This document shows, piece by piece, positions 2,948 through 50,041 of a DNA stretch of 64,000 nt (position 1 is its first letter; every line of letters starts with the position of its first letter). The stretch is from Cenarchaeum symbiosum A. Its GTDB lineage: Archaea > Thermoproteota > Nitrososphaeria > Nitrososphaerales > Nitrosopumilaceae. The stretch covers positions 194,832 to 258,831 of the forward strand of contig DP000238.1 in the NCBI GenBank assembly GCA_000200715.1, written 5' to 3'. The translations under genes and the position numbers were made by a program. The notes beneath the pieces were generated by a model. That model saw nothing but the letters and a program-made list of their open reading frames with translations, was not told the DNA's origin and ran no database searches.

Positions 2948-3520
2948 ATGTGGCCCGATCCTGAAGGTCTGAGCTTGTTTATGACATGGTGCAACGCGCC
3001 AGACGAGTACAAGAAAAGCATCAAGGAGTTGTCATTTACGTATGCAATGCATGTAGGAGGGGAGTGGAATCCAAGCACGGGTGTCATGAAGGTGAATCCG
3101 GAAATACCCGACATGGCGCAGGCTGATTTTATGAGGGACGAGCTTATACACGCGACATGGACCCTGTGGGGGGCCAACAGGCATAAAGAATTTCAAAACG
3201 GCATACAAGACATGGAGCCGCTGACCCCGCACTCGGCATCCTGGAAGTCCTCCAATCACAAAGTAATCTGGGAGAGGGTCAGTCAACTTGTCACAGATGC
3301 CATCAGCAGCGGCGACAAGGCGGGACACGGCGCCCGGATTCCCCTTCGACTGATCGACATAGAGCTCGGCTTTACGGATGACGACTACAAGCCGGAGGGC
3401 AGGGCCCAGAAATGGGCCGAACACGGCCTGTCATATGCGGAGCATATCTACGCCAACATGTCATATTCTGTCCTCATGAAAATCCGAACCGAGAAAAAAC
3501 CCGACAAGGATGATGGATAA
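2948..3520 (+). CDS. Hypothetical protein with an ExxH-like motif
   Basis: A 190-residue soluble protein I do not recognise. A strong TATA box (TATATAAG, 2918-2925) lies 28 bases before the ATG, so it should have its own leaderless transcript. Residues around 61-68 read RDELIHATW, in which ELIH resembles the ExxH half of a zincin metallopeptidase HExxH site, but the first His is Asp and no third metal ligand is obvious. The N-terminal region (SIKELSFTYAMHVGGEWNP) looks like a beta-rich fold. A zinc-protease-related or purely structural role are both possible; neither is shown. Confidence 0.65.
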   Translation: MWPDPEGLSLFMTWCNAPDEYKKSIKELSFTYAMHVGGEWNPSTGVMKVNPEIPDMAQADFMRDELIHATWTLWGANRHKEFQNGIQDMEPLTPHSASWKSSNHKVIWERVSQLVTDAISSGDKAGHGARIPLRLIDIELGFTDDDYKPEGRAQKWAEHGLSYAEHIYANMSYSVLMKIRTEKKPDKDDG

Positions 3521-4972: not shown

Positions 4973-6289
4973 ATGGCAAAACGCGCCGCCCCGTACGTGC
5001 TCACCGTAGCGGGCTCCGACCCGTCGTCTGGCGCCGGCATACAGGGCGACCTTGGGACAATATCCCGGATGGGCTGCACGGGGCTTTCTGTAATAACTGC
5101 AATAACGGCCCAGAACTCGTCAGGGTTCACAGGCGCCGAGCCCGTGCCCACCAGTATGGTCGCATTGCAAATGCAGGCGGTCCTCTCCGATTATGATGTA
5201 TCCGCGGTAAAGGTGGGCATGGTGCTCACGGTCCCAGTCATAAGGGCCGTATCTAGAGGGTTGGAAGAACTTGATGTTCCCGTGGTGCTCGACCCTGTAA
5301 TGCACTCGACTACCGGCGGCAGGCTGCTCGATGATGCAGCGCTCCCTGCACTTTCTAAACATCTAGTTTCCAGGGCTGATGTGGTGACCCCCAATGCGTC
5401 AGAGCTTGCTGTACTGTCCGGCATGAAGGCGGGCACGGCGGTCCAGGCTCGAACAGCAGCAACAAAACTGCTGGACAGGGGCGCCGGGGCGGTGGCGGTC
5501 ACGGGCCTGGCCGGACGGGGCAAGATATACGACCAGGTGGTCACATCAAAAGAGCACTTTGAGGTATCCGGCAGGAGGATAAGGGGCGAGAGCCACGGGG
5601 GCGGGTGCGCCTATTCTGCTGCAATGGCGGCATCGCTCGCACGAGGAATGGGCCTCAAGGCAGCAGCCCGGGAGGCGGCCGAGCATTCAAGGCGCTCCAT
5701 AGCATCGACAAGATCCGGCAGGGGCCTGCCTACGGTCTCGCACGGCCCCCGGGACAGAATAGAGGAGGAGCTGCAGGAATCCATTGGCGACTTTGTCCTC
5801 GATGATAACGCATGGAGGCACATACCCGAATGCCAGACAAACTTTGTCTATTCCAAAGAGCGCCCTAGATCCATATCCGGAATACTCGGAGTCGAGGGCC
5901 GTATAGTCCGGTGTGGGAACAGGGCGGTTATGGCGGGCAGGCTTGAGTACGGCGGCTCGAGGCACGTTGCAGCAGCAGTCCTAGAGGCAGGCAGGGCCCA
6001 TCCCTCGATACGGTCTGCCGCCAACATCAGGTACGATATACGCACGATAAAGATCATGAAGAAAAAGGGCATGATGGTCCTCTCGTACGATAGAACAAGC
6101 GAGCCTGCATCCTCAAAGTCCAGGGAGGGATCGTCTGTCCGCTGGGGGGTGCGCGCGGCGCTGGCAGGATCCCGGGATATTCCGGATGCGATCTATCACA
6201 CAGGCGATCACGGCAAAGAGCCCATGATTATAATATTTGGAAAAAAGCCATCCGATGTAATGGACAAGATACGCGCGATACTGACCTAG
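4973..6289 (+). CDS. thiDN: Bifunctional HMP(-P) kinase / ThiN-type thiamine-phosphate synthase
   Basis: A 438-residue fusion. Residues 1 to about 255 are a ThiD ribokinase-fold kinase (TVAGSDPSSGAGIQGD, DPVMHSTTGGRLLD, VTPNASELAVLSG). From about 265 to the end is a ThiN domain (NFVYSKERPRSISGILGVEG; IRYDIRTIKIMKKKG), which in archaea replaces ThiE and joins pyrimidine and thiazole moieties. ThiD phosphorylates hydroxymethylpyrimidine and its phosphate. The anion-hole motif near residue 209 reads HGGGCAYS where the usual form is GTGC, so one Thr is Gly. The stop codon shares a CTAG with the convergent gene at 6286. Confidence 0.92.
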   Translation: MAKRAAPYVLTVAGSDPSSGAGIQGDLGTISRMGCTGLSVITAITAQNSSGFTGAEPVPTSMVALQMQAVLSDYDVSAVKVGMVLTVPVIRAVSRGLEELDVPVVLDPVMHSTTGGRLLDDAALPALSKHLVSRADVVTPNASELAVLSGMKAGTAVQARTAATKLLDRGAGAVAVTGLAGRGKIYDQVVTSKEHFEVSGRRIRGESHGGGCAYSAAMAASLARGMGLKAAAREAAEHSRRSIASTRSGRGLPTVSHGPRDRIEEELQESIGDFVLDDNAWRHIPECQTNFVYSKERPRSISGILGVEGRIVRCGNRAVMAGRLEYGGSRHVAAAVLEAGRAHPSIRSAANIRYDIRTIKIMKKKGMMVLSYDRTSEPASSKSREGSSVRWGVRAALAGSRDIPDAIYHTGDHGKEPMIIIFGKKPSDVMDKIRAILT

Positions 6290-19223: not shown

Positions 19224-20521
19224 GGCGTCAGCCTGTCCACGTCCCGGGGGTAAAACGTCACGTCCCTGATGTTCTCCGTGCCCGTAAGTGCCATCATCAG
19301 CCTCTCGAGGCCTATTCCGCAGCCCGCGTGCGGGGGCACCCCGTAGTCAAAGGCGGCAAGGTGGTGCCCAAACGATCCCGCATTCATCCCCTTTGCGGCC
19401 ATTCTCTCTTCGAGTTCGGCCCTGTTGTCTATCCTTGTGCTGCCAGAAGAGATCTCAAGGTCGCCGAACATTAAATCAAACGATTCTGATGTGCGCCCGT
19501 CAGGGCCCACCTTTACGTAGAACGGCTTTGGGCCGGCAGGCCAGTCGGTGATAAAGTAAAAGCCCTCAAGGCCTGCTTTTTTGAGGGCCGACGGGTACAG
19601 GTCGTCGCCCCATTCGGCCTTTGCCCCCGCGCCCTTTATCCTGTCGAGCAGGTCTGCATAAGTATACCTTGGTATCTCTGCTGGAACATCCGGCACTGCA
19701 AACTGCGCGCCGGGGCCCCCCGCATAGGGTGTAGCAGCTGATGCCGCGCGCTTTACAATATCTGATATCCTGTCCATTATATCGTTGTAATCTACAAATG
19801 CCTCCTCAAGGTCTATCGATATGGCCTCGGCCAAATGCCTGTTGGTCCTTGACGGCTCGGCGCGAAAGATTGGCCCTATCTCGAATACCCTCTCAAGACT
19901 CATCGTCAGCTGCTCCTTGTACAGCTGTGGGCTCTGCGCCAAAAACGCCTCTTTGTTATAGTAGAATATCGGGAACAGCGCGGCGCCGCCCTCTGTGGCA
20001 GTCGATATCATCTTGGGGGTGCTGGCCTCGACAAAGCCGTTTTCGTAGAAATACTCCCTTGTCTCCCTCAATACTGCGCTCCTTGCATGGAACAGCTCGA
20101 GCAGCGCGTCCCTTCTGAGGTCTATCGGTCTTATCTCGAGGCGCGTCTCTATGTTTTTTACAGTCTTTGCCTGCGGCTCAAAGGGCGGTATCTTTTGCAC
20201 GTCTGCAAAGACCTTGAGCTCATTTGGCACCAGCTCAAACCCGGACGGGGCCTTCTCCGATGCCCTTACCGTCCCTGTTACGGCCACCACCGAGTGCGGC
20301 TTGAGCCCCGATATCCTCTCCCTTGTTTCATCGGGGCAGGAGCCGGACTTTGCGACCACCTGTATGCGGCCGTCCCTGTCGCGTATGGTCATAAAGGATA
20401 TTGCCCCGTGGCCCCGCACTGCCATGACCCACCCCATGACGGTGACATCCTTGCCGTCCATTGACGGGCCCAGTCCGCTGGAATAGTGCGTGCGCCTCAG
20501 GCCGCCCAGGCTGTCTTCCAT
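19220..20521 (-). CDS. aspS: Aspartyl-tRNA synthetase (archaeal type)
   Basis: A 433-residue class II synthetase. The N-terminal OB fold (GWVMAVRGHGAISFMTIRDRDG) is followed by motif 2 (GPIFRAEPSRTNRHLAEAISID) and motif 3 (GCGIGLERLMMALTG). ATG 20521 is chosen because TAAATTATGC (20541-20550) lies 25 bases upstream and the family begins with this sequence; longer in-frame starts up to 20788 run antisense through the divergent gene at 20634. Linkage to gatCAB suggests a non-discriminating enzyme that makes Asp-tRNA(Asn) for amidation (inference). Confidence 0.93.
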   Translation of the reverse strand: MEDSLGGLRRTHYSSGLGPSMDGKDVTVMGWVMAVRGHGAISFMTIRDRDGRIQVVAKSGSCPDETRERISGLKPHSVVAVTGTVRASEKAPSGFELVPNELKVFADVQKIPPFEPQAKTVKNIETRLEIRPIDLRRDALLELFHARSAVLRETREYFYENGFVEASTPKMISTATEGGAALFPIFYYNKEAFLAQSPQLYKEQLTMSLERVFEIGPIFRAEPSRTNRHLAEAISIDLEEAFVDYNDIMDRISDIVKRAASAATPYAGGPGAQFAVPDVPAEIPRYTYADLLDRIKGAGAKAEWGDDLYPSALKKAGLEGFYFITDWPAGPKPFYVKVGPDGRTSESFDLMFGDLEISSGSTRIDNRAELEERMAAKGMNAGSFGHHLAAFDYGVPPHAGCGIGLERLMMALTGTENIRDVTFYPRDVDRLTP

Positions 20522-20633
20522 GCAGGCACGACAAACAGGGGCATAATTTACTTTCTCATGTGGGAATGGACCGCCCCCGTGCCTGCGGGAGACGCCTGTG
20601 CCCAATAAATAACGGCGCGGGTCATTATCCTGC

Positions 20634-20843
20634 ATGTCCCTCTCATCCAGGGAGAAGGCGATAGCCCTGGTCTCAAACGGCATAGCCGTATACTCTCTGT
20701 ACAGGGAGAGCAACTCCCTGCCGGAGGGCGTCTCGCTGATCGACTTTGTGCTCAAGGCGGTCCCCGAGGGGATAAGGGGCGAGGTCACAGCGGAGCTTAT
20801 CGACGAGGTCTTTGCGTATGTATCGGGCGCACATGCTTCATAA
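20634..20843 (+). CDS. Small conserved-looking hypothetical protein
   Basis: A 69-residue helical protein with no motif that I recognise. A TATA-like box (CAATAAATAAC, about 20602-20612) lies 28 bases before the ATG. It is divergent from aspS and 23 bases ahead of purP, with which it may be cotranscribed. Confidence 0.65.
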   Translation: MSLSSREKAIALVSNGIAVYSLYRESNSLPEGVSLIDFVLKAVPEGIRGEVTAELIDEVFAYVSGAHAS

Positions 20844-20866
20844 GTAGAGCAGAGGGCGCCCCCCGC

Positions 20867-21892
20867 ATGAAGTCGGTATCCACGCTTGGATCACACTGTT
20901 CTCTTCAGCTGCTCAAGGGCGCAAAGGACGAGGGGTTCCGGACCCTGCTCGTCTGCGAGAGAAGAAGGGAGCGCTTTTACCGCAGGTTCGGCTTTATAGA
21001 CGAGCTTGTCCTTGTTGACGGCTTTGGGGAGCTGCTGGGCGACGAGTGCCAGTCCGTCCTGGCCGAGAATGATTCCATACTGATCCCCCACGGCACATTG
21101 GTGGCCCAGATGTCGCCCGACCAGATAGAATCGATAGGGGTGCCGGTCTTTGGCAACAAGTGGATCCTCCGGTGGGAATCCGACAGGTCTCTAAAGGAGA
21201 GGCTCATGCGCGAGGCGCGCCTCAGAATGCCAAGGAGCATAGATAGCCCCGGCGACATAGACACGCTTGTCATAGTAAAGAGGCAGGGTGCGGCAGGCGG
21301 CAAGGGCTACTTTATGGCAAACAGCGAGGAAGAGTATGAATCCAAGAGGCTGTCCTTGATAGAATCCGGGGTGATATCTACCGACGAGGATCTCTACATA
21401 CAGGAGTATGTGCCGGGCGTGCTCGCATACCTGCAGTTTTTTTATTCTCCGCTAAAGGCGGATATCGAGTTCTTTGGCGCAGACCAGCGGCACGAATCCG
21501 ACATAGAGGGGCTGGCACGCATACCCGCACCTGTGCAGATGGGCTCCAGCGGGATACCTTCATTCAATGTGATAGGGAACAGCCCGCTTGTGCTCCGTGA
21601 ATCGCTTTTAGAGGGGGCGTACCGGATGGGCGAGGACTTTGTCGAGGCATCAAGCAGGCTTGTTGCGCCCGGGATGAACGGGCCGTTTTGTATCGAGGGC
21701 GTATACGGCGATGACGGGAGGTTCACCTCCTTTGAGTTCTCTGCAAGGATTGTGGCCGGCACCAACATCTACATGAACGGCTCCCCCTACTATGGCCTGC
21801 TGTTCGATGAGCCGATCAGCATGGGCAGGCGCATCGCCCGCGAGATAAAATCAGCCATCGCCGAGGAGAGGCTCGACGAGACGGTCACCTGA
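20867..21892 (+). CDS. purP: FAICAR synthetase PurP (formate-dependent)
   Basis: A 341-residue ATP-grasp enzyme of archaeal purine synthesis that formylates AICAR with formate and ATP. Recognised blocks are STLGSHCSLQLLKGAKDEGF, VKRQGAAGGKGYF (ATP-grasp loop), and FEFSARIVAGTNIYMNGSPY near the C-terminus. The length fits the family. A 39-base piece resembling codons for LIPHGTLVAQMSP recurs at 23601-23639, evidence of a former second copy nearby. Confidence 0.9.
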   Translation: MKSVSTLGSHCSLQLLKGAKDEGFRTLLVCERRRERFYRRFGFIDELVLVDGFGELLGDECQSVLAENDSILIPHGTLVAQMSPDQIESIGVPVFGNKWILRWESDRSLKERLMREARLRMPRSIDSPGDIDTLVIVKRQGAAGGKGYFMANSEEEYESKRLSLIESGVISTDEDLYIQEYVPGVLAYLQFFYSPLKADIEFFGADQRHESDIEGLARIPAPVQMGSSGIPSFNVIGNSPLVLRESLLEGAYRMGEDFVEASSRLVAPGMNGPFCIEGVYGDDGRFTSFEFSARIVAGTNIYMNGSPYYGLLFDEPISMGRRIAREIKSAIAEERLDETVT

Positions 21893-21937
21893 AGCGAAAA
21901 CAAACAGTATAAAACCAGATCATGTAGTACATGCACT

Positions 21938-22447
21938 ATGGAGGTGCGTATTCTCTCTGACGGTGGCGTGCAGGTCCTCAAGTACAGGCCCCACCAGTCG
22001 AAGCGTCCAAAGAGAGGCCGCTATGCCAGCAGGTATACGGTGGCTGAGCAGAAGTTGGCGGCAATGCAAGACTATGAGAGATGCATCAACATGTGGGCAG
22101 GCCTTGCAACGACCGACCGGAACTCGACCCATGTCCTCTACTATGACTGGGAACAGGCAGTGTATGTCGTGATCAGCATCAAAAAACCGATGCTCACGCC
22201 CGCCAAGTGGATAGCGGTGGCCTGTTTTAACATGTTCGGGTATCGCTCGGGCAGATCCTGCGAGCATATAACGACCCTGGGAGATCTAATAGACGAGATC
22301 GAAGATGCCAACATCACCGGGGGATCACATAACTCGTATCCGGATGATATTGCCCGCCTTGCGGCGCGGCACCTTCTCTATGCCGAGCCCTCCATAATGG
22401 AACCAGAATCCGGCCGGACCACTGCCGCATTGGTTGAACTTACATGA
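21938..22447 (+). CDS. Unknown family, copy 1 of a local paralogue group
   Basis: A 169-residue protein with a basic N-terminal stretch (KRPKRGRYASRYTVAEQK, about residues 22-39) followed by a mixed domain (CINMWAGL, YYDWEQAVYVVISIKKP, ITTLGDLIDEIED) and a conserved end (YPDDIARLAARHLL). It is the only intact copy of three in the next 2.7 kb. CAGTATAAAAC (21907-21917) is 27 bases before the ATG and is nearly the same as the box before copy 3. I do not recognise the family; the basic N-terminus could bind nucleic acid. Confidence 0.7.
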   Translation: MEVRILSDGGVQVLKYRPHQSKRPKRGRYASRYTVAEQKLAAMQDYERCINMWAGLATTDRNSTHVLYYDWEQAVYVVISIKKPMLTPAKWIAVACFNMFGYRSGRSCEHITTLGDLIDEIEDANITGGSHNSYPDDIARLAARHLLYAEPSIMEPESGRTTAALVELT

Positions 22448-22526
22448 TTACAGACATGCATAACAATACCGGATCATACCCTTCTGCATGTTGAAGATCT
22501 GCTGCGATAAAGTCAGGCATCCGAAT

Positions 22527-22847
22527 TCATGCCGGACATCGGGGGCAGTTTGGTAACATATGTTCATACGCTTTGCCTGACAGTTCAATGAGAGAGTCTT
22601 CTATCATCCGTATAAAACTTAATACTGGATACAAATCCAATTCCCTTGGTTCTTCCATAACCGAAACCGAATTCTTACATGTCAACACGATGTGACCAAG
22701 ATGTGATTTGGATTCAACATAACCACACTCACAATATAGCTTAGGACACAAAAAAATATAGATAAATACACATCTTGCAGAATGATCTAAATTAAATAAT
22801 ACCTTGAGTTTGTATGCTTCATCAGGTTGTGATTGATTATGCTGCAT
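22527..22847 (-). CDS. Hypothetical protein in an A+T-rich insert
   Basis: A 106-residue protein with four clustered cysteines (CPKLYCECG, CKN) that could bind zinc, then a helical tail (LSFIRMIEDSLIELSGKAYEHM). It lies in a stretch clearly poorer in G+C than the rest (22% and 38% in two 60-base lines counted here), which suggests foreign origin. Its ATG overlaps the start of the divergent gene, so at least one start is wrong. Confidence 0.45.
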   Translation of the reverse strand: MQHNQSQPDEAYKLKVLFNLDHSARCVFIYIFLCPKLYCECGYVESKSHLGHIVLTCKNSVSVMEEPRELDLYPVLSFIRMIEDSLIELSGKAYEHMLPNCPRCPA

Positions 22848-23339
22848 ATAGGATTGGACGTATCAGGAAATCAGAACGAGGGTAATTATCTGCATATGGG
22901 GATTGTGATCGGAACGGACAGTGGGATAGCTCGGATGATAAAACATCTAAATTACGTGCTGGGATCCGATGAATGGACCAAAACCACTACGGATCGAAGA
23001 CTCCTTGTCCGAAACATGATATTTGACGAGAAAAACATAATTGCGTTCTGTATCAATTTGTCAATGAATAAGATAATTAGAGATGTAAATAGTTCAATGA
23101 GGGGTAGGCACAAGCGTATTTCATCAGATGCCACTTTGAGGGCATATCGTCGTTTGTTATGGAAGACAATCAGGGAAAACATATTAGAATTTGTAAATAT
23201 GCATAACCATTCATTTGATGATGTTGCTTTTCAGTGTGATTCCGACTGTGTCAAATTTTTGAAAGATAACGGCCTGCACCGAGCAGGCGCTGGCGATGCA
23301 TATCTTGCTTTCAGATCTCGTGGCGTGGGCAAACAATAA
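22839..23339 (+). CDS. Hypothetical protein in an A+T-rich insert, frameshifted at the 3' end
   Basis: The open frame gives 167 residues beginning LHIGLDVSGN, which looks like the first strand of an RNase H-like fold with a catalytic Asp, and containing FQCDSDCVKFLKDNGL. It ends AFRSRGVGKQ. Skipping one T in the TTT at 23309-23311 restores a frame reading SDLVAWANNNDRHDHPGV and ending in KLKKNLKR at TAG 23422-23424. I judge that longer tail to be the original C-terminus. The gene is in DNA of about 27-38% G+C (two 60-base lines counted), unlike its surroundings, and stops at the edge of repeat A. A DUF3800-like nuclease is possible but not shown. Confidence 0.55.
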   Translation: MLHIGLDVSGNQNEGNYLHMGIVIGTDSGIARMIKHLNYVLGSDEWTKTTTDRRLLVRNMIFDEKNIIAFCINLSMNKIIRDVNSSMRGRHKRISSDATLRAYRRLLWKTIRENILEFVNMHNHSFDDVAFQCDSDCVKFLKDNGLHRAGAGDAYLAFRSRGVGKQ

Positions 23340-23414
23340 TGATCGACATGATCACCCCGGAGTTATTTCTCTGAGCTTGCCTGACACATTTACGAGTAAA
23401 TTGAAGAAGAATCT

Positions 23415-23519
23415 AAAAAGGTAGCCGCACCCACACAATGCCCTAGGTTACCAGCACAGCTGACCCTAAGGGTTCGAGCGCGACTGTATATACGGGGTAG
23501 ATAATAGTATAATAATTTG
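23415..23519 (+). repeat. ~105-bp repeat, copy A
   Basis: First of three copies (A, B, C). The core from CACACAATG to GACTGTATA is 59 bases and differs between A and C at one base. It contains an imperfect hairpin: CCCTAGG...CCTAAGGG around AGC-ACA-GCT. It ends in AGTATAATAATTTG, which looks like a TATA box. The left edge includes the restored stop codon of the preceding gene. Confidence 0.85.
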
Positions 23520-23600
23520 TCGCTAAGCTAAAAGTAAGGATTCAGGTTCAGGCGTGGCTGAGGAGGCAGGCAGTGGAGGATATGTGCCTGAAAGATGATG

Positions 23601-23639
23601 CTGATCTCCCACGGAACACTGGCAGCCCAGATGTCGCCC
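23601..23639 (+). pseudogene. Fragment of a second purP
   Basis: Thirty-four of 39 bases match purP at 21080-21118. One frame still reads LISHGTLAAQMSP against LIPHGTLVAQMSP in purP. It is joined directly to the 3' half of a copy-1-like paralogue, so a purP-plus-paralogue unit seems to have been duplicated and mostly deleted. Confidence 0.6.
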
Positions 23640-23911
23640 CGGGGGATCTAATAGTCGTGAACAAAGACTCCAACATTCTCGGGGGATTTAATAACTCGTA
23701 TCCGGGTGACATTGCCCGCCTTGCCGCGCGGTACCTTCTTGACGTCGAGCGCTCCGTGATGGGGCTGGAATCTGGCTGGCCTGTTCCATTGGCAGGGCTC
23801 TCATTATGTATCTGTGAGTTTGAAAAGGTAGTCGCACCCACACAATGCCCTAGGTCACCAGCACGGCTGATCCTAAGGGTTCGAGCGCGACTGTATACAC
23901 ATGGGGTATAG
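23640..23911 (+). pseudogene. Paralogue group, copy 2: 3' remnant
   Basis: From GGGGGATCTAATAG onward the DNA parallels copies 1 and 3 and reads NNSYPGDIARLAARYLL, the conserved C-terminus of the family, followed by VPLAGLS and a run-on tail to 23911. The N-terminal two thirds are missing and replaced by the purP fragment. No promoter is evident, so it is unlikely to be expressed as a functional protein. Confidence 0.6.
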
Positions 23912-23926
23912 TAGTATAATAGTTTG
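23822..23926 (+). repeat. ~105-bp repeat, copy B
   Basis: It follows the copy 2 remnant and includes its run-on coding tail. The 59-base core differs from copy A at three positions. It shares with copy C an extra upstream block (CTGTGAGTTTGAAAAG), so B and C were duplicated together with the gene end. Confidence 0.85.
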
Positions 23927-23968
23927 ACAGATCCGTCCCTGAGGCCAAAATCTGGGAGATTTGCGCTA

Positions 23969-24012
23969 GCTGGCTGCCAAAAATCAGTAACTAACACCTG
24001 CTGGCAGGCAGC
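23969..24012. repeat. Inverted repeat
   Basis: GCTGGCTGCC (23969-23978) is matched by GGCAGGCAGC (24003-24012) with one mismatch and a 24-base spacer. It lies between repeat B and the promoter of copy 3. It could be a hairpin terminator or a relic of a mobile element end; nothing else supports either. Confidence 0.45.
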
Positions 24013-24071
24013 TAAAGTTAACAGAGCCGCGGGGGCAACTGTATAAAACTACATTATGCCGTATACGCACG

Positions 24072-24473
24072 ATGGAGGTGCACATTTTCTATGGAGGGGG
24101 CGCGCAGGTCCTCAAGTACAGGCCCCGCCAGTCAAAGCGCCCAAAGAGGGGCCGATATGCCAGCAGGTATACAGTGGCCGAGCAGAAGATGGCGGCCGAG
24201 CGGGACTATGAGCGATGCATCAACATGTGGGCAGGCCTCGCGGCTACCGACCGGAACTCTACCCATATTCTCCACTATGACTGGGAGCAGGCAGGGTATG
24301 CTGTAATCAGCATCAAAAAACCGGTGATCACGCCCGCCAAGTGGATAGATGTGGCCTGCTTTGACATGTTCGAGTATGGCCCCGGCAGATCCGGCGAGGA
24401 GATAACACCCTTGGGGGATCTAATAGACGAGATCGAAGACTCCAACATCACCGGGGGGGGGGGGGCGCAATAA
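24072..24473 (+). CDS. Paralogue group, copy 3, truncated at a poly-G tract
   Basis: The 133-residue product is closely similar to copy 1 over its first 128 residues (basic KRPKRGRYASRYTVAEQK, then CINMWAGL). At a run of 13 G the frame turns into GGGGAQ and stops. Removing one G, or adding two, restores RNNSYPDDIARLAARHLL and continues to TGA at 24583-24585, matching copy 1. The promoter CTGTATAAAAC (about 24039-24049) is conserved with copy 1. The gene may be phase-variable, decayed or mis-sequenced. Confidence 0.65.
   Translation: MEVHIFYGGGAQVLKYRPRQSKRPKRGRYASRYTVAEQKMAAERDYERCINMWAGLAATDRNSTHILHYDWEQAGYAVISIKKPVITPAKWIDVACFDMFEYGPGRSGEEITPLGDLIDEIEDSNITGGGGAQ
24453..24465 (+). repeat. 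Homopolymer tract of 13 G
   Basis: It lies inside copy 3 where copies 1 and 2 have only five G. A tract of 12 or 15 would keep the full protein in frame, so slippage here would switch the C-terminal 39 residues on and off. Confidence 0.85.
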
Positions 24474-24600
24474 CTCGTACCCGGATGACATAGCCCGCCT
24501 GGCGGCGCGGCACCTTCTAGATGCCGAGCCCTCCGTGATGGGGCCGGAATCTGATGGGCCTGTTCCATTGGAAGGGCTACCATGATGCATCTGTGAGTTT

Positions 24601-24705
24601 GAAAAGACAGCCGCCCCCACACAATGCCCTAGGTTACCAGCACAGCTGACCCTAAGGGTTCGGGCGCGACTGTATACACTGGGATCATTCCAGTATAATA
24701 ATTTG
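24601..24705 (+). repeat. ~105-bp repeat, copy C
   Basis: It follows the displaced 3' end of copy 3 by 15 bases. The core is identical to copy A but for one base. It again ends in AGTATAATAATTTG, about 107 bases before the asparaginase start. Confidence 0.85.
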
Positions 24706-24811
24706 CTGCTCCTAGTGCATAATCCCGGCCCCAGTGGATCTGTGCGGCCAGGCTATCTGTGCGGCAGGGATCTACGCTTCGATTAAAATACATCGTGATA
24801 CTATAACCTGC

Positions 24812-25651
24812 ATGGATAGGTGTGCCGTGATAGTGCACGGCGGGGCGGCAAACCAGGGCCCCGGCGACTGGTTCAAGAAGGGCTACATACGCGACGTGGC
24901 AAAGTCTGCATGGGAGAAGATAGGTAAAGGCGCGGCAGCAATCGAGGTGGCCGAGCAGGCCGTAATAGACCTCGAGGACAGCCGCCTGTTCAACGCGGGA
25001 ATGGGCTCGTACGCAACAAAGGAGAACACGCTGGAGATGGACGCGGGCATAATGGACGGCCGCACTCTCGCATGCGGCGGGGTGGGGGCGATAAGCGACG
25101 TAAAGAACCCTGTTGCGGTGGCCTCCAAGGTGATGAGCCTGTCGGACCACTCGGTGATAGTGGGCCCGGGCGCGCTCAGCTTTGCACTCTCCCACGGGAT
25201 GGAAAAGTACACAATGGAGCTCCGGGAGAACATGGATCACGAAAAACTCGGCACGGTGGGCGCTGCCATACTGGATACCCACGGCGACATGGCCGCGGCT
25301 GTCTCAACTGGAGGAACGGGCACTATGCCCAGCGGCAGGGTTGGGGCATCCGCAATAGCCGGATCCGGATATTACGCAAAGAACGGGGCCGGCGCCGCGG
25401 CTACAACCGGGAACGGCGACACCCTGCTGATGTCCGGTACGGCGCGCAGATGCTGCGAGCTCATGGAGAAAAAAAGCGCCGCACAGGCCGCCTCGGATTT
25501 ATCAGTAAAGGAGCTGGGCGCACTCCCCGGCGGCATGGGCGGTATAATATCGGTCGATGCAAACGGGGAAATAGGATTTTCATTCAATACCACATCAATG
25601 ACATACGCATGCATAAACGACAGGATGGATGAGATATGGGTCTCGCTATGA
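24812..25651 (+). CDS. Isoaspartyl peptidase / plant-type L-asparaginase
   Basis: A 279-residue Ntn-hydrolase precursor that cleaves itself before the nucleophilic Thr in KLGTVGAAILD (about residue 149), giving alpha and beta chains. Other family blocks are IVHGGAANQGP at the N-terminus, LFNAGMGSYAT and GGTGTMPSGRVG. ATG 24812 is chosen because GATTAAAATAC lies 27 bases before it; an upstream in-frame GTG at 24734 would add 26 residues. It removes isoaspartyl dipeptides or asparagine. Confidence 0.9.
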   Translation: MDRCAVIVHGGAANQGPGDWFKKGYIRDVAKSAWEKIGKGAAAIEVAEQAVIDLEDSRLFNAGMGSYATKENTLEMDAGIMDGRTLACGGVGAISDVKNPVAVASKVMSLSDHSVIVGPGALSFALSHGMEKYTMELRENMDHEKLGTVGAAILDTHGDMAAAVSTGGTGTMPSGRVGASAIAGSGYYAKNGAGAAATTGNGDTLLMSGTARRCCELMEKKSAAQAASDLSVKELGALPGGMGGIISVDANGEIGFSFNTTSMTYACINDRMDEIWVSL

Positions 25652-25917
25652 TGCCTAGATACATGAAAGGGCGCCTGGCACACCTCTGGTATGCTAGGGC
25701 ATGGAAGATGGCATGCAACCGGCCTGGCCCCCAAACCCGGAATCAGTGCCCGGGCGATGCCCTAGGGACCTCCACGTCGGGAGCCCGCCGGCTGCCTGCC
25801 GTCATGCTATGCCGCCCGGGGCACAGCAGTGCCTGGTCTCTTGGGGTAACGCCGGGGATCCTTCAAACCGGCCACCTGCGGCTGCCCGCGATGCCCGAAT
25901 CTGCCCCTGACCAAAGC
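25652..25917. other. Intergenic stretch, no supported gene
   Basis: This stretch between the asparaginase gene and the radA promoter is G+C-rich. A plus-strand frame of 98 codons (25636-25932) overlaps the asparaginase end, runs into the radA promoter and has no domain, so I treat it as chance. Confidence 0.35.
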
Positions 25918-25927
25918 GTATATATGG
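25918..25927 (+). promoter_or_regulatory. TATA box of radA
   Basis: GTATATATGG is centred about 26 bases before the radA ATG, predicting a leaderless transcript. It is one of the strongest boxes in the window. Confidence 0.65.
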
Positions 25928-25948
25928 TATAGTACGGTACGATACAGC

Positions 25949-27145
25949 ATGAATATTGAAAACTTCGATCTCTCGGATCTCGAAGGCGTAGGACCTGTCA
26001 CCAAGAAGAAACTAGAGGACTCTGGAGTTCACTCCATGATGGACCTCGTGGTGCGCGGGCCCGTTGAGCTGGGCGAGATATCGAGCATGAGTTCAGAGAT
26101 ATGCGAAAAGATAGTGACGATCGCAAGAAAGAGGCTCGCTGAAACGGGCGCGATCACAAAGGACTTTGCCTCAGGCTCAGAGATCTACAAGCGGAGACAG
26201 AGCATCGGAATGATCACCACCGGCACGGACGCACTAGACGCGCTCCTGGGCGGCGGCATCGAGACGCAGGCAATAACGGAAGTCTTTGGAGAGTTCGGTT
26301 CAGGCAAGACGCAGTTCTGTCACACCATGTGTGTGACTACCCAAAAGCCCAAGGAAGAGGGCGGACTGGGCGGAGGCGTCATGTACATCGACACCGAGGG
26401 CACATTCAGGCCAGAGAGGGTAGTGACGATCGCCAAGGCTAACAACATGGATCCAGCAAAGCTGCTCGACGGCATCATAGTTGCCAGGGCATACAACAGC
26501 TCCCACCAGGTACTGATACTCGAAGAGGCCGGAAAGACAATCCAAGAGGAGAACATAAAACTGATAATCTCCGATTCCACCACCGGCCTGTTCAGATCAG
26601 AGTATCTGGGCAGGGGGACGCTGGCAAGCAGGCAGCAGAAGCTCGGGCGGTACATCCGGCTCCTCGCCAGGATTGCAGAGACGTACAACTGTGCTGTTCT
26701 CGCGACCAACCAGGTATCATCCAGCCCCGACTCGTTCTTTGGGGACCCCACGCGGCCGGTAGGCGGCAACGTGGTGGGCCACGCGAGCACGTACCGGATA
26801 TACTTCAGGAAGGGCGGCAAGAACAAGCGCGTAGCCAAGATCATCGACAGCCCGCACCATCCGGCAAGCGAGGCGGTCTTTGAGCTCGGCGAGCGCGGAG
26901 TGCAGGACACCGAGGAACACCTCAAGCAGCTTGACAAGGAGGCAAAAAAGGCCGAGAAAGAGGCCGCCAAGCCTGTCAAGAAGTCAAAGGCAAAGGCCAA
27001 GGCTGACGGCCCCGAGGGTGTAGACGCCACGCCGGCGATCGAGCCCGAGGGTATCGACACTGCGGCTGCCGAGCCGGAGGATATTGGTACAATTGTATCC
27101 GAATCTGCGGATGCAGGCGAGCCTGCAGATCCCGAACTAGAATAG
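25949..27145 (+). CDS. radA: DNA repair and recombination protein RadA
   Basis: A 398-residue archaeal RecA/Rad51 homologue. The N-terminal helix-hairpin-helix domain is LEGVGPVTKKKLEDSG (11-26). Walker A is GEFGSGKT at 114-121 and Walker B is LIISDS. DNA-binding loops and the region VSSSPDSFFGDP follow. The family core ends near residue 325. About 70 extra residues follow, first Lys/Ala-rich and helical (KEAKKAEKEAAKPVKKSKAK), then acidic and Pro/Ala-rich. RadA forms filaments on single-stranded DNA for strand exchange. A hairpin terminator with T runs follows. Confidence 0.96.
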   Translation: MNIENFDLSDLEGVGPVTKKKLEDSGVHSMMDLVVRGPVELGEISSMSSEICEKIVTIARKRLAETGAITKDFASGSEIYKRRQSIGMITTGTDALDALLGGGIETQAITEVFGEFGSGKTQFCHTMCVTTQKPKEEGGLGGGVMYIDTEGTFRPERVVTIAKANNMDPAKLLDGIIVARAYNSSHQVLILEEAGKTIQEENIKLIISDSTTGLFRSEYLGRGTLASRQQKLGRYIRLLARIAETYNCAVLATNQVSSSPDSFFGDPTRPVGGNVVGHASTYRIYFRKGGKNKRVAKIIDSPHHPASEAVFELGERGVQDTEEHLKQLDKEAKKAEKEAAKPVKKSKAKAKADGPEGVDATPAIEPEGIDTAAAEPEDIGTIVSESADAGEPADPELE

Positions 27146-27155
27146 ATTTTCACAC

Positions 27156-27186
27156 GCCCCATTGGGGCAGTTTTTTTTACTTTTTT
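27156..27186 (+). terminator. Hairpin and T-run terminator after radA
   Basis: A five-pair stem GCCCC/GGGGC with loop ATT is followed within two bases by eight T and then six more T. Archaeal termination mainly needs the T runs; this site would stop radA transcription before the convergent thrS. Confidence 0.7.
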
Positions 27187-27208
27187 ACAAGCATGAGGGT
27201 GCGGCGCC

Positions 27209-29056
27209 CTAGAGCATTACCTGGGGCCGCTTGGACAGATAGAACGGCGAGTTGAGCCCTGCCGACGGCTTTCCGGCAGTCTGCTCCCTGACCGCCTCGA
27301 CCAGGTCGTCGAGGCCCATCTCGGTGCTCTTGCCTGTGCGCCTGTCCCGGACGCTCAGCCTGCCCGATGCTGCCTCTTTCTCGCCCACCACCAGGATGTA
27401 CCTTACCCACTCTTTTTCGGCCTCGCGTATGCGCTTTCCCATGCTTTCGTTTCTGTCGTCCACGTCCGCCCTTATGCCGTGCCCCGCCATCTCCTTTGCC
27501 AGCTCGGTTGCATTTCTGACCAGCTCCTCGCCGACGGGTATTATCCGGGCCTGCACGGGGCTCAGCCACAGCGGGAGCTCGGGCTTTGTGCCGCGGGCGG
27601 AATCTGCCGCGGCCTTTTCAAGCAGGGTGTATATGACGCGCTCGATGGCACCGCTTGGCGAGTTGTGCAGTATCACTGGATGCTGGCGCCCGTTGTTCTC
27701 GTCGACAAACTCTATCCCGTATCTCTTTCCGTTCTCGACGTCAATCTGGTCGGTGGAGAGCGCAGAGGCCTTGCCCGCGCCGTCGATATAGTTGAACTCC
27801 CACTTTAAGACAAAGTAAAAGAACCGCTCCTTCCACATCTCGACGAGAACGGGCCTGCCGTGCCTCCGGACCATCTCCCTTACCGCCCCGCCGTTTTCTG
27901 CATAGAACTCCTCTGTCAGCCTTATGGCCATTTCATAGTCGGCTGCATCGAGCCCGAGCTGGCCTATCACGTCCCTGGACAGCTCAAAGCGCACGCCCGC
28001 CTCCCTTACCGCCTGCGCCATGTCCGTGCAAAATGCATGGCAGTCGGGCATTGTAAACGCGCGCAGCCTCCTTAGGCCGACAAGCTCCCCCGACTGCTCG
28101 CGCCGGAAGCTGTACCTGGTCAGCTCGTACAGCCTGAACGGCAGGTTCTTGTACGATAGCTGATAGTCGCCCGCCATCAGAAACTGCCCAAAGCATGCGG
28201 CAAACCTCAGAAAGAGGCTCTTGCCCTCGGAATCTATGCTGTACTGCCTTGCAGGGAACCTGTTGAAATAGCTGACCATGCTCGGGTGGTTGGAATCGTA
28301 CATTATGGGCGTCTCCACCTCGTACCCGCCGTACTCGACGACCCGCTCCGTAACATACCTCTCTATGAGCGATTTTATCAGCCTCCCGTTGGGAAAAAAC
28401 TTCATGTTCCCCGCGTCTGACGCCGGCTCATAGTCGGCTATTCCCATTCTTTTCATGAGGGCCACGTGGGGGGGCGGCTCGTCTGTTCCGCGCTTTTTCG
28501 ACGCCTCGTACCTTGCCAGCGCCTTGAGCTTGGGGCAGCCTGCAAAGTCAAACTCCGAGGCATCTGTCATGTTCCCGTCGGGAGTAAGCACGTGCCATGT
28601 CGACTTCATCGATGATTCTGATTCTAGCGCCTTTGGGGCCCCTGTCCCCCGCGCGTCCCCCGTTATCACCTTGAATCCCTCTGCCAGCGGGTGGCCCTTG
28701 ACGCTTATCGTATAGCTTTTCGTCCAGCCAAAGGGGGCGCGGGATACTTCAAGGTCGTGCAGGGCTGCCTCCATCTCGGATATGAGGCCCAGCGCTATAG
28801 ACGGCGCTGCCAGCGTCGAGCTTAGGTGTGCATACGGATAGATGAGCAGCTTCTTGCAGCCGATCCTGCCTAGCGCCTGCCTCAGCTCGGCCGCGGCCCT
28901 TGCAGCCTCGCCGGGCCCGTCGCCCTTTTCTACGGCCACAAACGCGAGCACCGCATCCTCGAGCTTCCCCCCGGTGGCTGGCTCTTCTGCCGCGGCAATC
29001 TCTTTTTTGACGGGCGAGTACTCTATACGGTCACAGTGTAGCTGCAGTATGCGCAC
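27209..29056 (-). CDS. thrS: Threonyl-tRNA synthetase (archaeal type)
   Basis: A 615-residue class II synthetase. The N-terminal ~140 residues are the archaeal editing domain (related to D-Tyr deacylase; MRILQLHCDRIEY start, YPYAHLSS), which removes mis-attached serine. The catalytic core and the C-terminal anticodon-binding domain (VQARIIPVGEE; ADVDDRNESMGKRIREAE) follow. GTG 29056 gives the usual family N-terminus and lies about 31 bases from CTTATTCG; a TTG at 29077 would add seven residues. Confidence 0.94.
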   Translation of the reverse strand: MRILQLHCDRIEYSPVKKEIAAAEEPATGGKLEDAVLAFVAVEKGDGPGEAARAAAELRQALGRIGCKKLLIYPYAHLSSTLAAPSIALGLISEMEAALHDLEVSRAPFGWTKSYTISVKGHPLAEGFKVITGDARGTGAPKALESESSMKSTWHVLTPDGNMTDASEFDFAGCPKLKALARYEASKKRGTDEPPPHVALMKRMGIADYEPASDAGNMKFFPNGRLIKSLIERYVTERVVEYGGYEVETPIMYDSNHPSMVSYFNRFPARQYSIDSEGKSLFLRFAACFGQFLMAGDYQLSYKNLPFRLYELTRYSFRREQSGELVGLRRLRAFTMPDCHAFCTDMAQAVREAGVRFELSRDVIGQLGLDAADYEMAIRLTEEFYAENGGAVREMVRRHGRPVLVEMWKERFFYFVLKWEFNYIDGAGKASALSTDQIDVENGKRYGIEFVDENNGRQHPVILHNSPSGAIERVIYTLLEKAAADSARGTKPELPLWLSPVQARIIPVGEELVRNATELAKEMAGHGIRADVDDRNESMGKRIREAEKEWVRYILVVGEKEAASGRLSVRDRRTGKSTEMGLDDLVEAVREQTAGKPSAGLNSPFYLSKRPQVML

Positions 29057-47563: not shown

Positions 47564-50041
47564 CTAGCAGAATCTTTGCAGTTCTTGTATATCGCTGGCA
47601 TTTAGGCTGTTCAACATGTGACTCCTGTCGCCCATTCCGTAATCCTTGTGACTCCTGTCGTGCATTCCGTGCCCCTTGTCACCCATGCCGGAGTGCATTC
47701 CGTGCCCCTTGTCACCCATGCCGGAGTGCATTCCATAATCCTTGTCACTCCTGTCGTGCATGCCGTGCCCCTTGTCACCCATGCCAGAGTGCATTCCATA
47801 ATCCTTGTCACTCCTGTCGTGCATGCCGTGCCCCTTGTCACCCATGCCAGAGTGCATTCCGTGCCCCTTGTCACCCATGCCGGAGTGCATTCCATAATCC
47901 TTGTCACTCCTGTCGTGTATGTCGTAATCCCATTCGCCTATGTCAAAGATCTCGGAAACGAAACTATCATGGTCGACCAGGTGTTCAACCAGATATTCGT
48001 GGTGCTCTGTGCCGTGTCCATCCGATGTATCATGGCTTTCCATGTGATCCACGACAAATTCGGCATGCTCCATCAGATGGCCGCCAAACGTGAGTTGTGA
48101 GTGCAGCTCATTGTGCATGACTACATTATCGAGAGAAAGCTCATCCATCCCAATCATTTGCGCCTCCTCATGCTCCTTCAAATGCTCTTCCTCAACCATG
48201 GCAACTCTCCTCACAAATTCTTCCTCGCTTATCTCCAAGTTTCCATGTATGCCATCGTCGTACATTTTGTGCCCCATCTTACCGCACGAGCATCCCTCGC
48301 CGTCCATGTGGCCCATTCTCTCACTCATATCGTGGCCGCTCTTGCCGCACATGCCCTTTTCCATGTGGCCCATTCTCTCACTCATATCGTGGCCGCTCTT
48401 GCCGCACATGCCCTTTTCCATGTGGCCCATTCTGTCTGTCATGTTGCCGTACTTGTCATGCATGCCCTTTTCCATGTGGCCCATTCTATCGCCCATCTTG
48501 TCCGTCATATTGCCGTACTTGTCATGCATGCCCTTTTCCATGTGGCCCATTCTATCGCCCATCTTGTCTGTCATGTTGCCGTACTTGTCATGCATGCCCT
48601 TTTCCATGTGGCCCATTCTATCGCCCATCTTGTCTGTCATATTGCCGTACTTGTCATGCATGCCCTTTTCCATGTGGCCCATTCTATCGCCCATCTTGTC
48701 TGTCATATTGCCGTACTTGTCATGCATGCCCTTTTCCATGTAGCCCATCTTGTCTGTCATATTGCCGTACTTGTCATGCATGCCCTTTTCCATGTGGCCC
48801 ATTTTATCACCCATTTTGTCCTTCATGTGGCCCATTCTCTCACCCATCTTGTCTGTCATATTGCCGTACTTGTCATGCATGCCCTTTTCCATGCGGTCGT
48901 TCATCTTGCCCATGTGGCCATCCTCATGCATGCCCTTTTCCATGTGCGTATCGTCACCGTGTCCTATCATATGTCCAGTCGCGTGTACCTTGTGCCCGAT
49001 GATGTGCCCGTCGCCTGCATCGTGCTCCTCCATGTGCTCGGCAAGGTATTCCTTGTGCTCCTTCAGGTGCTGGACCGTCCTGTCCTGGGAATGCTTGTCA
49101 TAATGCGTGCCTATCATGCGGGCATACACCTCGTGTGCGGAATCAGATGCATCCAGGTGCTCCTGAACGTGTTCCCTTGACATCATTGATGCTTCTTCCG
49201 CATACTCCTCCGAATACTGTTTGCTGCCATTGTGATTTTCATAGTGGCTTGTTTTGTTGTACGTGCCCTTGTCATACTTGCCCGAGTGCCCCGAGGCAAT
49301 GTGCTCGCTTATGTGCATCTTGTGCTCGCTGATGTGCCCGTCGCCTGCATCATGCCCCTCCATGTGCACCATAAAGTACAATATGTGGTCGAAAAGGTGC
49401 TGGTCTATCCTGCCGTCCGCGTGCATGTCCCGGTGGCCGTCCATCACCTGGACAAACTCGTCCAGGCTGTCATCCGAGGCATCCAGGTGCTCCTGAATGT
49501 GCTTGCTGTTCACCCTGTCCGCTTCCATTACATACCCGGTAGCATCGCCGCCGTGATCAATGGCCATGTGCCCTATTACGTGCATTTTGTGCTCGACGAT
49601 ATGGCCGTCATCCGCCATATGCCCGTCCAGATGTTCTGTGAGGTACTCCCCGTGCTCGTGGCGTATGCTGTCCCCGTCATTCCGGTGTTCATCATTATGC
49701 ACGTCTATCTCGCCGACAAACTTTCCAAGCGTCATAAGACTTGAGACTCCCAAGTGCTCCTGCACGTGCCTCTCTGAGAGCATCAGTGCATCCGTCTTTT
49801 CGGAGCTGCCGGATTCCATCCGGGGCTCCCCTGCCGAGCATACCAGGTGCCCGTATTTGACAAATTTGTCATAGACCGACCTGTCGCCAAACTCGGCGCA
49901 CAGCCTGTCACCGCAGATGACATCGGACGTGGATGTCCCGTACCTGCCGTTTGGCTTGCCTTCTGCCTGTGCCCCGTAGGCGGCCCCCGTGATTATAAGC
50001 AGCGGTATTACAGCTACTATGGCCAGGTGTAATCTATGCAC
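47564..50041 (-). CDS. Secreted His/Met-rich repeat protein, possible metal binder
   Basis: An 825-residue protein with a GTG start and a signal peptide (hydrophobic 6-23). A short Cys segment follows (VICGDRLCAEF, 41-51). Then come three ~75-residue His-rich modules (90-166, 179-253, 289-363), each opening H-V/I-QEHL and closing DGHI-x2-HK-M/V-H; a 215-residue tandem array (366-580) of units like GHMEKGMHDKYGNMTDKMG; a fourth His module (618-695); and a C-terminal array of GMHSGMGDKGH and DRSDKDY units (708-810). Met/His density suggests copper or other soft-metal binding outside the cell. TATA ATTAAATAGC (50061-50070) is 25 bases upstream. Function is inference. Confidence 0.85.
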   Translation of the reverse strand: MHRLHLAIVAVIPLLIITGAAYGAQAEGKPNGRYGTSTSDVICGDRLCAEFGDRSVYDKFVKYGHLVCSAGEPRMESGSSEKTDALMLSERHVQEHLGVSSLMTLGKFVGEIDVHNDEHRNDGDSIRHEHGEYLTEHLDGHMADDGHIVEHKMHVIGHMAIDHGGDATGYVMEADRVNSKHIQEHLDASDDSLDEFVQVMDGHRDMHADGRIDQHLFDHILYFMVHMEGHDAGDGHISEHKMHISEHIASGHSGKYDKGTYNKTSHYENHNGSKQYSEEYAEEASMMSREHVQEHLDASDSAHEVYARMIGTHYDKHSQDRTVQHLKEHKEYLAEHMEEHDAGDGHIIGHKVHATGHMIGHGDDTHMEKGMHEDGHMGKMNDRMEKGMHDKYGNMTDKMGERMGHMKDKMGDKMGHMEKGMHDKYGNMTDKMGYMEKGMHDKYGNMTDKMGDRMGHMEKGMHDKYGNMTDKMGDRMGHMEKGMHDKYGNMTDKMGDRMGHMEKGMHDKYGNMTDKMGDRMGHMEKGMHDKYGNMTDRMGHMEKGMCGKSGHDMSERMGHMEKGMCGKSGHDMSERMGHMDGEGCSCGKMGHKMYDDGIHGNLEISEEEFVRRVAMVEEEHLKEHEEAQMIGMDELSLDNVVMHNELHSQLTFGGHLMEHAEFVVDHMESHDTSDGHGTEHHEYLVEHLVDHDSFVSEIFDIGEWDYDIHDRSDKDYGMHSGMGDKGHGMHSGMGDKGHGMHDRSDKDYGMHSGMGDKGHGMHDRSDKDYGMHSGMGDKGHGMHSGMGDKGHGMHDRSHKDYGMGDRSHMLNSLNASDIQELQRFC
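47612..47920 (-). repeat. Coding tandem repeat, GMHSGMGDKGH/DRSDKDY units
   Basis: Alternating 10-residue units in the C-terminal part of the His/Met protein, nearly identical at DNA level (plus strand ACCCATGCCGGAGTGCATTC and similar). Recent duplication or conversion is likely, and unit number may vary between strains. Confidence 0.85.
48302..48946 (-). repeat. Coding tandem repeat, 22-residue Met/His units
   Basis: Units of about 66 bases encode MGHMEKGMHDKYGNMTDK followed by MGDR; several are identical or differ at one or two silent bases. Two units near the end are 18 residues with Cys (KGMCGKSGHDMSER). The array continues in frame throughout, which argues for selection on the protein. 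Confidence 0.88.

Follow-up and report, generated by a model that had tools for sequence, protein, structure and literature searches.

Small nuclease-fold proteins encoded beside a structured non-coding RNA (ncRNA), in multiple copies and with a patchy distribution, are known from TnpB with its omegaRNA, IscB, and IS110 with its bridge RNA, while in convergent type I toxin-antitoxin pairs the RNA and the gene are arranged tail to tail. RNA motifs associated with DUF3800 proteins (PF12686) reportedly originate from a 2017 paper. The DUF3800 proteins possess an RNase H fold and have been linked to putative ncRNAs (PMC10910872), and the Rfam motifs DUF3800-I and DUF3800-IX are named in Table 2 of another report (PMC11701678). 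The subject of this work is a repeat present in three copies in a 64,000-nt stretch of DNA (the window; positions 194832-258831 of the single-contig, 2,045,086-bp genome) from the archaeon Cenarchaeum symbiosum A. In a survey of mobile elements in Thaumarchaeota, no IS-like transposons are reported for this organism, and its accessible part mentions neither DUF3800 nor ncRNA (PMC6563490). In the accessible portions of the open-access literature on DUF3800, candidate structured RNAs and Nitrosopumilus small RNAs, and on archaeal RNase H with structured RNA and Cenarchaeum repeats or small RNA, no description of this RNA was found. We consider it likely that the repeats and an adjacent gene, P0002, represent a divergent DUF3800-like nuclease-RNA module, in which the RNA is made from its own promoter, the protein is bound and controlled by it, and the two genes lie tail to tail, i.e. 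a known kind of system, a DUF3800-like nuclease with an RNA, in an archaeal form.

Like the DUF3800 proteins, the protein family to which P0002 belongs has a predicted RNase H fold, a D-x-S-G start, a later Asp and a C-terminal [LQ]AD helix, and as in the DUF3800 systems a structured ncRNA is located near the gene. However, the P0002-family proteins are shorter (165-200 aa, vs about 210-270 in the archaeal DUF3800 set), they have no PF12686 match and no conserved counterpart of the near-invariant DUF3800 Glu, and the RNA, unlike the Rfam DUF3800 motifs, matches no Rfam family and is convergent at the gene 3' end. RNase HII provides the best PDB fold match for the P0002-family model, but the two are only ~10-16% identical, no RNase HII sequence family is matched, and the family starts with D-V/L-S whereas RNase HII starts with D-E. 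By analogy, the combination of a nuclease-fold protein with an adjacent structured ncRNA, multi-copy and patchy, resembles the TnpB, IscB and IS110 systems. The RNA described here differs in that it is short, is encoded on the opposite strand, has a T-run at its end and lacks a variable guide segment. The tail-to-tail arrangement is likewise analogous to that of convergent type I toxin-antitoxin pairs, from which this RNA differs in its covarying conserved structure and in its common gene-less copies.

The three copies (A, B and C) are found at 23409-23524, 23816-23931 and 24595-24710 of the window and share one register without gaps, in agreement with the preliminary description of this DNA. 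Over a core of ~58 nt, the identities are 55/58 (A-B), 56/58 (A-C) and 53/58 (B-C); the one A-C and three A-B differences counted previously are reproduced when slightly different core limits are taken, whereas this core has two and three. Between the hairpin and the TATA-like end there is a spacer of fixed length but variable sequence (10-11/16 identical among the copies), and the TATA-like end itself is more conserved (10-12/14). Read on the minus strand, each copy contains in order a box resembling a transcription factor B recognition element (BRE) and TATA box, the spacer, a bulged hairpin and a T-run. The imperfect hairpin described earlier is real, but its fold is stronger on the minus strand (z -0.97, -2.43 and -3.84 for A, B and C) than on the plus strand (-0.64, +0.52 and -1.61), and the TATA-like element at the end of each copy, although present, would be the promoter of a minus-strand RNA read backwards. 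The parts of the copies are listed below, with model R2 and the promoter position weight matrix (PWM) as described in the paragraphs that follow.

23418..23490, minus strand: RNA copy A, a bulged hairpin of ~66 nt, type I, span of model R2 (70.5 bits; fold z -2.71)
23825..23897, minus strand: RNA copy B (R2, 72.8 bits)
24604..24676, minus strand: RNA copy C (R2, 69.1 bits)
23508..23521, minus strand: BRE/TATA-like candidate promoter of copy A (PWM 7.0, 31 nt ahead of the model start)
23913..23926, minus strand: BRE/TATA-like candidate promoter of copy B (PWM 6.1 at -29)
24692..24705, minus strand: BRE/TATA-like candidate promoter of copy C (PWM 5.5 at -29)
23415..23419 (A), 23823-23826 (B) and 24602-24605 (C), minus strand: T-runs seen in the sequence, likely transcript ends

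A plain nucleotide search of the genome retrieved only these three copies and no fourth, and in 60 relatives it gave only short, chance-like matches (best E 0.0019). A covariance model (R1) built from the three window copies retrieved additional loci, several of which adjoin relatives of the open reading frame (ORF) in the A+T-rich insert preceding copy A. When 400 genomes sampled from the class were searched with model R2, built from 18 RNAs (type I), 28 matches were obtained; they are spread over 8 genomes, with 8 of the 28 in this genome. Model R3, built for a second RNA form (type II), gave 10 more copies, all in this genome, besides a single weak match that lies opposite one of these 10 on the other strand. 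This genome therefore contains at least 18 RNA copies (8 of type I and 10 of type II), and the lack of further copies, named in the preliminary description as an outcome that would refute its reading, is contradicted by these matches. At locus L081 (746500-757000 of the same genome), six type II RNAs are located on one strand within ~6 kb, together with two nuclease genes and with small ORFs (2967-3359 and 5669-6271 of the locus) upstream of those genes, and at locus L082 an ORF similar to these small ORFs precedes the nuclease gene. The Rfam covariance models, including the DUF3800 motifs, gave no match at E<=1 in positions 20000-28000 of the window, nor did they in a set of 10 loci totalling 64191 bases. 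Readings of the RNA as H/ACA, C/D, K-turn or tRNA-like found no support from Rfam, with the boxes judged by eye only.

The alignment of the 18 RNAs shows that 88.3% of the cells are paired, vs 30-48% when it is slid, with changes on both sides in 13 of 19 pairs, and its covariation score of 0.489 is to be compared with 0.298 for shuffled alignments (0/500 as high) and 0.10-0.23 for slid ones. In a second alignment of 10 RNAs, 9 of which were not used for model building but which was itself fitted to the model, 91.8% of the cells are paired and the score is 0.586 vs 0.290 shuffled (0/500). Compensatory pairing among the copies is thus well above both types of control. Further, the paired cells contain 73 G-U against 6 A-C in the modelled strand (29 and 3, respectively, in 9 new copies), and this excess indicates that selection acts on the modelled, i.e. 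the minus, strand. Of the roles suggested in the preliminary description, that of a functional RNA is therefore strongly supported by the covariation and the G-U bias, but on the strand opposite to that of the neighbouring paralogues, and the repeat is best described, with strong support from the sequence comparisons, as a small structured-RNA gene on the minus strand.

The position of the candidate promoter was assessed with a PWM derived from the regions upstream of 30 tRNA matches, out of 42 in this genome. The best PWM site is located 28-34 nt before the start of the RNA model in 17 of 23 copies, compared with 297 of 8400 random positions, and in types II and III a promoter-like site is present 35-37 nt before the first stem in 9/9 cases, one of which scores low (4.1). 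As TATA boxes are near-symmetric, the direction of transcription rests on this spacing and on the G-U bias. A score combining folding and promoter reaches its threshold on the antisense side downstream of the gene at 20 of 24 loci, vs 5-6 of 24 upstream. However, the threshold is also reached at 15 of 24 loci on the downstream sense side, where the same hairpin is present, and due to this the combined score is weak evidence for direction.

The genomic partner of the RNA is P0002, located with its insert as follows.

22842..23339, plus strand: P0002, gene for a predicted RNase H-fold (DUF3800-like) protein, with family matches; frame interrupted near the 3' end
22451..23408, no strand: A+T-rich insert carrying P0002 (GC 0.398 vs 0.566 in the flanks)

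Relatives of P0002 account for 29 matches in 14 of the 400 genomes of the class and for 7 loci in GTDB contigs (all assigned to Nitrososphaerota, Cenarchaeum, Nitrosopumilus or Nitrosopumilaceae), and no homologues were found in the phage, plasmid and IMG/VR collections. Each of the six P0002-family genes of this genome is accompanied by a convergent RNA, whose distance from the matched part is 0-70 bp (null expectation 0.0013 per gene), and at 12 loci measured the distance from the stop codon to the RNA end is -21 to +24 nt. Among 25 distinct gene loci, counted after merging split matches and with one fragment (G276) left out of the RNA inspection, 17 have a model-supported adjacent RNA, 14 by R2 (E<=0.01, convergent, near the gene 3' end) and three by R3, and six have an unmodelled hairpin recognised by eye and folding only. 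Of these 17, 14 had supplied sequences for model training (11 for R2, and all three for R3), so that the R2-supported loci outside the R2 training are L089, L097/L164 and L111. At L087 the gap between gene and RNA extends to ~100 nt, and at G139:C122 to ~200 nt. The P0002 gene of the window has a frame break ahead of the final conserved motif; this motif carries on in a different frame and terminates within copy A, and we interpret this locus as having the same gene-RNA layout, decayed or with a sequencing error. The proposed tie of the repeats to the ends of paralogous genes holds for the position of B and C but is secondary, and the partner that recurs across genomes is the RNase H-fold gene beside copy A. 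Of the 18 RNA copies of this genome, 12 are unpaired with the six genes, one of them beside a gene remnant, which suggests that unpaired copies act in trans or are decaying.

No family in Pfam, NCBIfam, PHROG or PADLOC matches the P0002-family protein at a meaningful score, and a PDB sequence search with the family profile gave no meaningful match. Its predicted structure (predicted local distance difference test score, pLDDT, 86.8; predicted template modelling score, pTM, 0.85) has RNase HII as its best fold match (Foldseek E 3.5e-4; VIA Z 8.7, root-mean-square deviation 3.4 over 141 residues), and in a search of BFVD a viral DUF3800 protein ranks second (E 2.9e-3). Asp residues are conserved at positions 8, 135, 137 and 160 (numbering of the first sequence). 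When the profile of 18 members was compared by hhalign with 22 archaeal DUF3800 proteins, a probability of 95.3% was obtained (E 2.1e-8, 156 columns). PF12686 itself is listed for 0 of the 18 members at E<=10, and the near-invariant DUF3800 Glu (E62, alignment A8) has no counterpart, as no conserved Glu column is seen in the family alignment (A9). The best reading of these predictions is that the P0002-family protein is a divergent archaeal relative of DUF3800. PF12686 is found in this genome at one other locus only; at L158 a canonical DUF3800 gene (1548-2318) of the same genome has no type I RNA nearby. A canonical DUF3800 protein modelled without an alignment reached a pLDDT of only 34 and was set aside. 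In G199 a type I RNA lies ~390 bp from a canonical DUF3800 gene, and a second RNA (G272, L172) is located ~0.7 kb from a partial DUF3800 match.

The RNA structure, its strand, the recurrent pairing with the gene, the predicted fold and the low GC content of the modules (0.40-0.47 vs 0.52-0.62 in the flanks) are features of the sequences themselves, and from them we infer how the module may work. Each repeat would be a self-contained gene for a structured RNA of ~70 nt, with an archaeal promoter of its own from which transcription runs leftward on the minus strand as far as the T-run. The RNA and the compact RNase H-fold protein would form a two-part module with genes tail to tail, the RNA most likely binding the protein via its conserved internal loop (5' CGAA / 3' AUGUG). 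The bound RNA would hold, direct or restrain the nuclease activity, and together the two may form an accessory ribonucleoprotein module, selfish or defence-like in nature. RNA copies lacking a gene, e.g. B and C, could work in trans, or they may be remnants of a tandem duplication. Based on the GC contrast and the patchy presence (14/400 genomes), the module was probably acquired horizontally, and it is partly decayed here.

Several observations weigh against this interpretation. At copies A, B and C, the plus strand outscores the minus strand in PWM score (9.3, 8.7 and 8.4 vs 7.0, 6.1 and 5.5), and as the higher plus-strand score falls at about the same place, the PWM score alone gives no direction. 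A promoter-like site is at the expected place in only 3 of 8 further copies, and the unmodelled hairpins at L101, L103 and L105 have none at the usual place. For six of the 25 gene loci there is only an unmodelled hairpin, two of which (L105, z -0.67; L104, z +0.10) fold no better than shuffled sequences, and the gene at G201 has no adjacent RNA, the type I RNA there being 2.2 kb off and on the strand of the gene. On the protein side, no such family is known to Pfam, NCBIfam or PADLOC, and hhalign with a 6-sequence profile gave a probability of only 6%. Lastly, a type I RNA is present at 1 of 30 canonical DUF3800 loci (G199, ~390 bp from the gene), and the DUF3800 link is therefore thin for the RNA.

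Among other explanations, the RNA could be a cis-antisense regulator whose overlap with the nuclease mRNA at its 3' end would reduce expression, on the model of convergent type I antitoxin pairs. The tail-to-tail pairing and the RNA 3' ends that overlap or abut the stop codon agree with this; however, the overlap is just a few bases, and such a regulator needs neither a structure covarying across genomes nor gene-less copies (12/18 in this genome), and we regard it as unlikely. Slightly less probable still is that the element acts as DNA, i.e. as a structured transposon end or recombination site of the attC, IS200/IS605 or miniature inverted-repeat transposable element (MITE) type. Its multiple copies, tandem arrays, gene-less copies, low-GC modules and patchy distribution (protein in 14/400 genomes) would be expected of such an element, but the 73 to 6 excess of G-U over A-C points to selection on one strand as RNA, which also disfavours the recombination site suggested previously; the promoter-like site has a fixed spacing in 17/23 copies, and the protein has no match in the phage, plasmid and IMG/VR collections. 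An attC/integron reading was rejected, as the paired RYYYAAC/GTTRRRY cores of the attC consensus are absent from A, B and C on either strand. That the hairpin is a mere (bidirectional) terminator common to convergent genes appears improbable: a hairpin with a T-run does occur at gene 3' ends, but a terminator has no need of the conserved internal loop, a promoter-like site lies upstream, and copies are also found outside convergent gene pairs.

As previously described, copies B and C are each preceded by the 3' end of a P0001-family gene, and copy A by the A+T-rich insert. The P0001-family features are given below.

21938..22447, plus strand: P0001-family gene 1, no known domain, upstream neighbour
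23598..23807, plus strand: remnant in which a 42-bp purP-like fragment is joined to the 3' portion of a P0001-family gene
24072..24586, plus strand: P0001-family gene 3, with a frame break at a run of 13 G

The P0001 family gave no convincing domain match and is found at this locus only (41 genomes searched). As a partner of the RNA it was rejected on these grounds, and also because, among the matches listed, all were in loci of this region. The 42-bp piece (23598-23639) shares 86% identity with the purP-like gene upstream (21077-21118), and its fusion in unit B is a trace of tandem duplication with deletion. The location of B and C behind P0001-family genes is probably due to tandem duplication of the segment with deletions. 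The flanking P0001-family segments were duplicated too (82-85% identical). Nevertheless, it is very improbable that A, B and C are conserved merely through recent local duplication, as related copies with compensatory changes are present at other places in this genome as well as in other genera, and the 73-nt span of the RNA shows 4-8 nt differences whereas genes 1 and 3 differ at 58/390. The 13-G run in gene 3 (24453-24465) could reflect decay, a sequencing slip or a phase-variable tract. Elsewhere in the window (47633-48983), arrays of 57-66-bp direct repeats, in multiples of three, likely belong to a repetitive protein gene.

The structure-aware search revealed at least 18 RNA genes where a plain sequence search gave three. 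It is possible, though we hold this more tentatively than the DUF3800-like reading, that the module is a previously undescribed archaeal system, in which an RNase H-fold protein would work only with a ~70-nt convergent hairpin RNA, moving horizontally among ammonia-oxidising archaea, and in which gene-less RNAs would serve as trans-acting decoys, antitoxins or guides. For the DUF3800-type proteins and their nearby RNAs, no known function was found in the literature, and the short archaeal form, with its simple hairpin and fixed tail-to-tail layout, may offer a tractable route to the role of such RNA-nuclease pairs.
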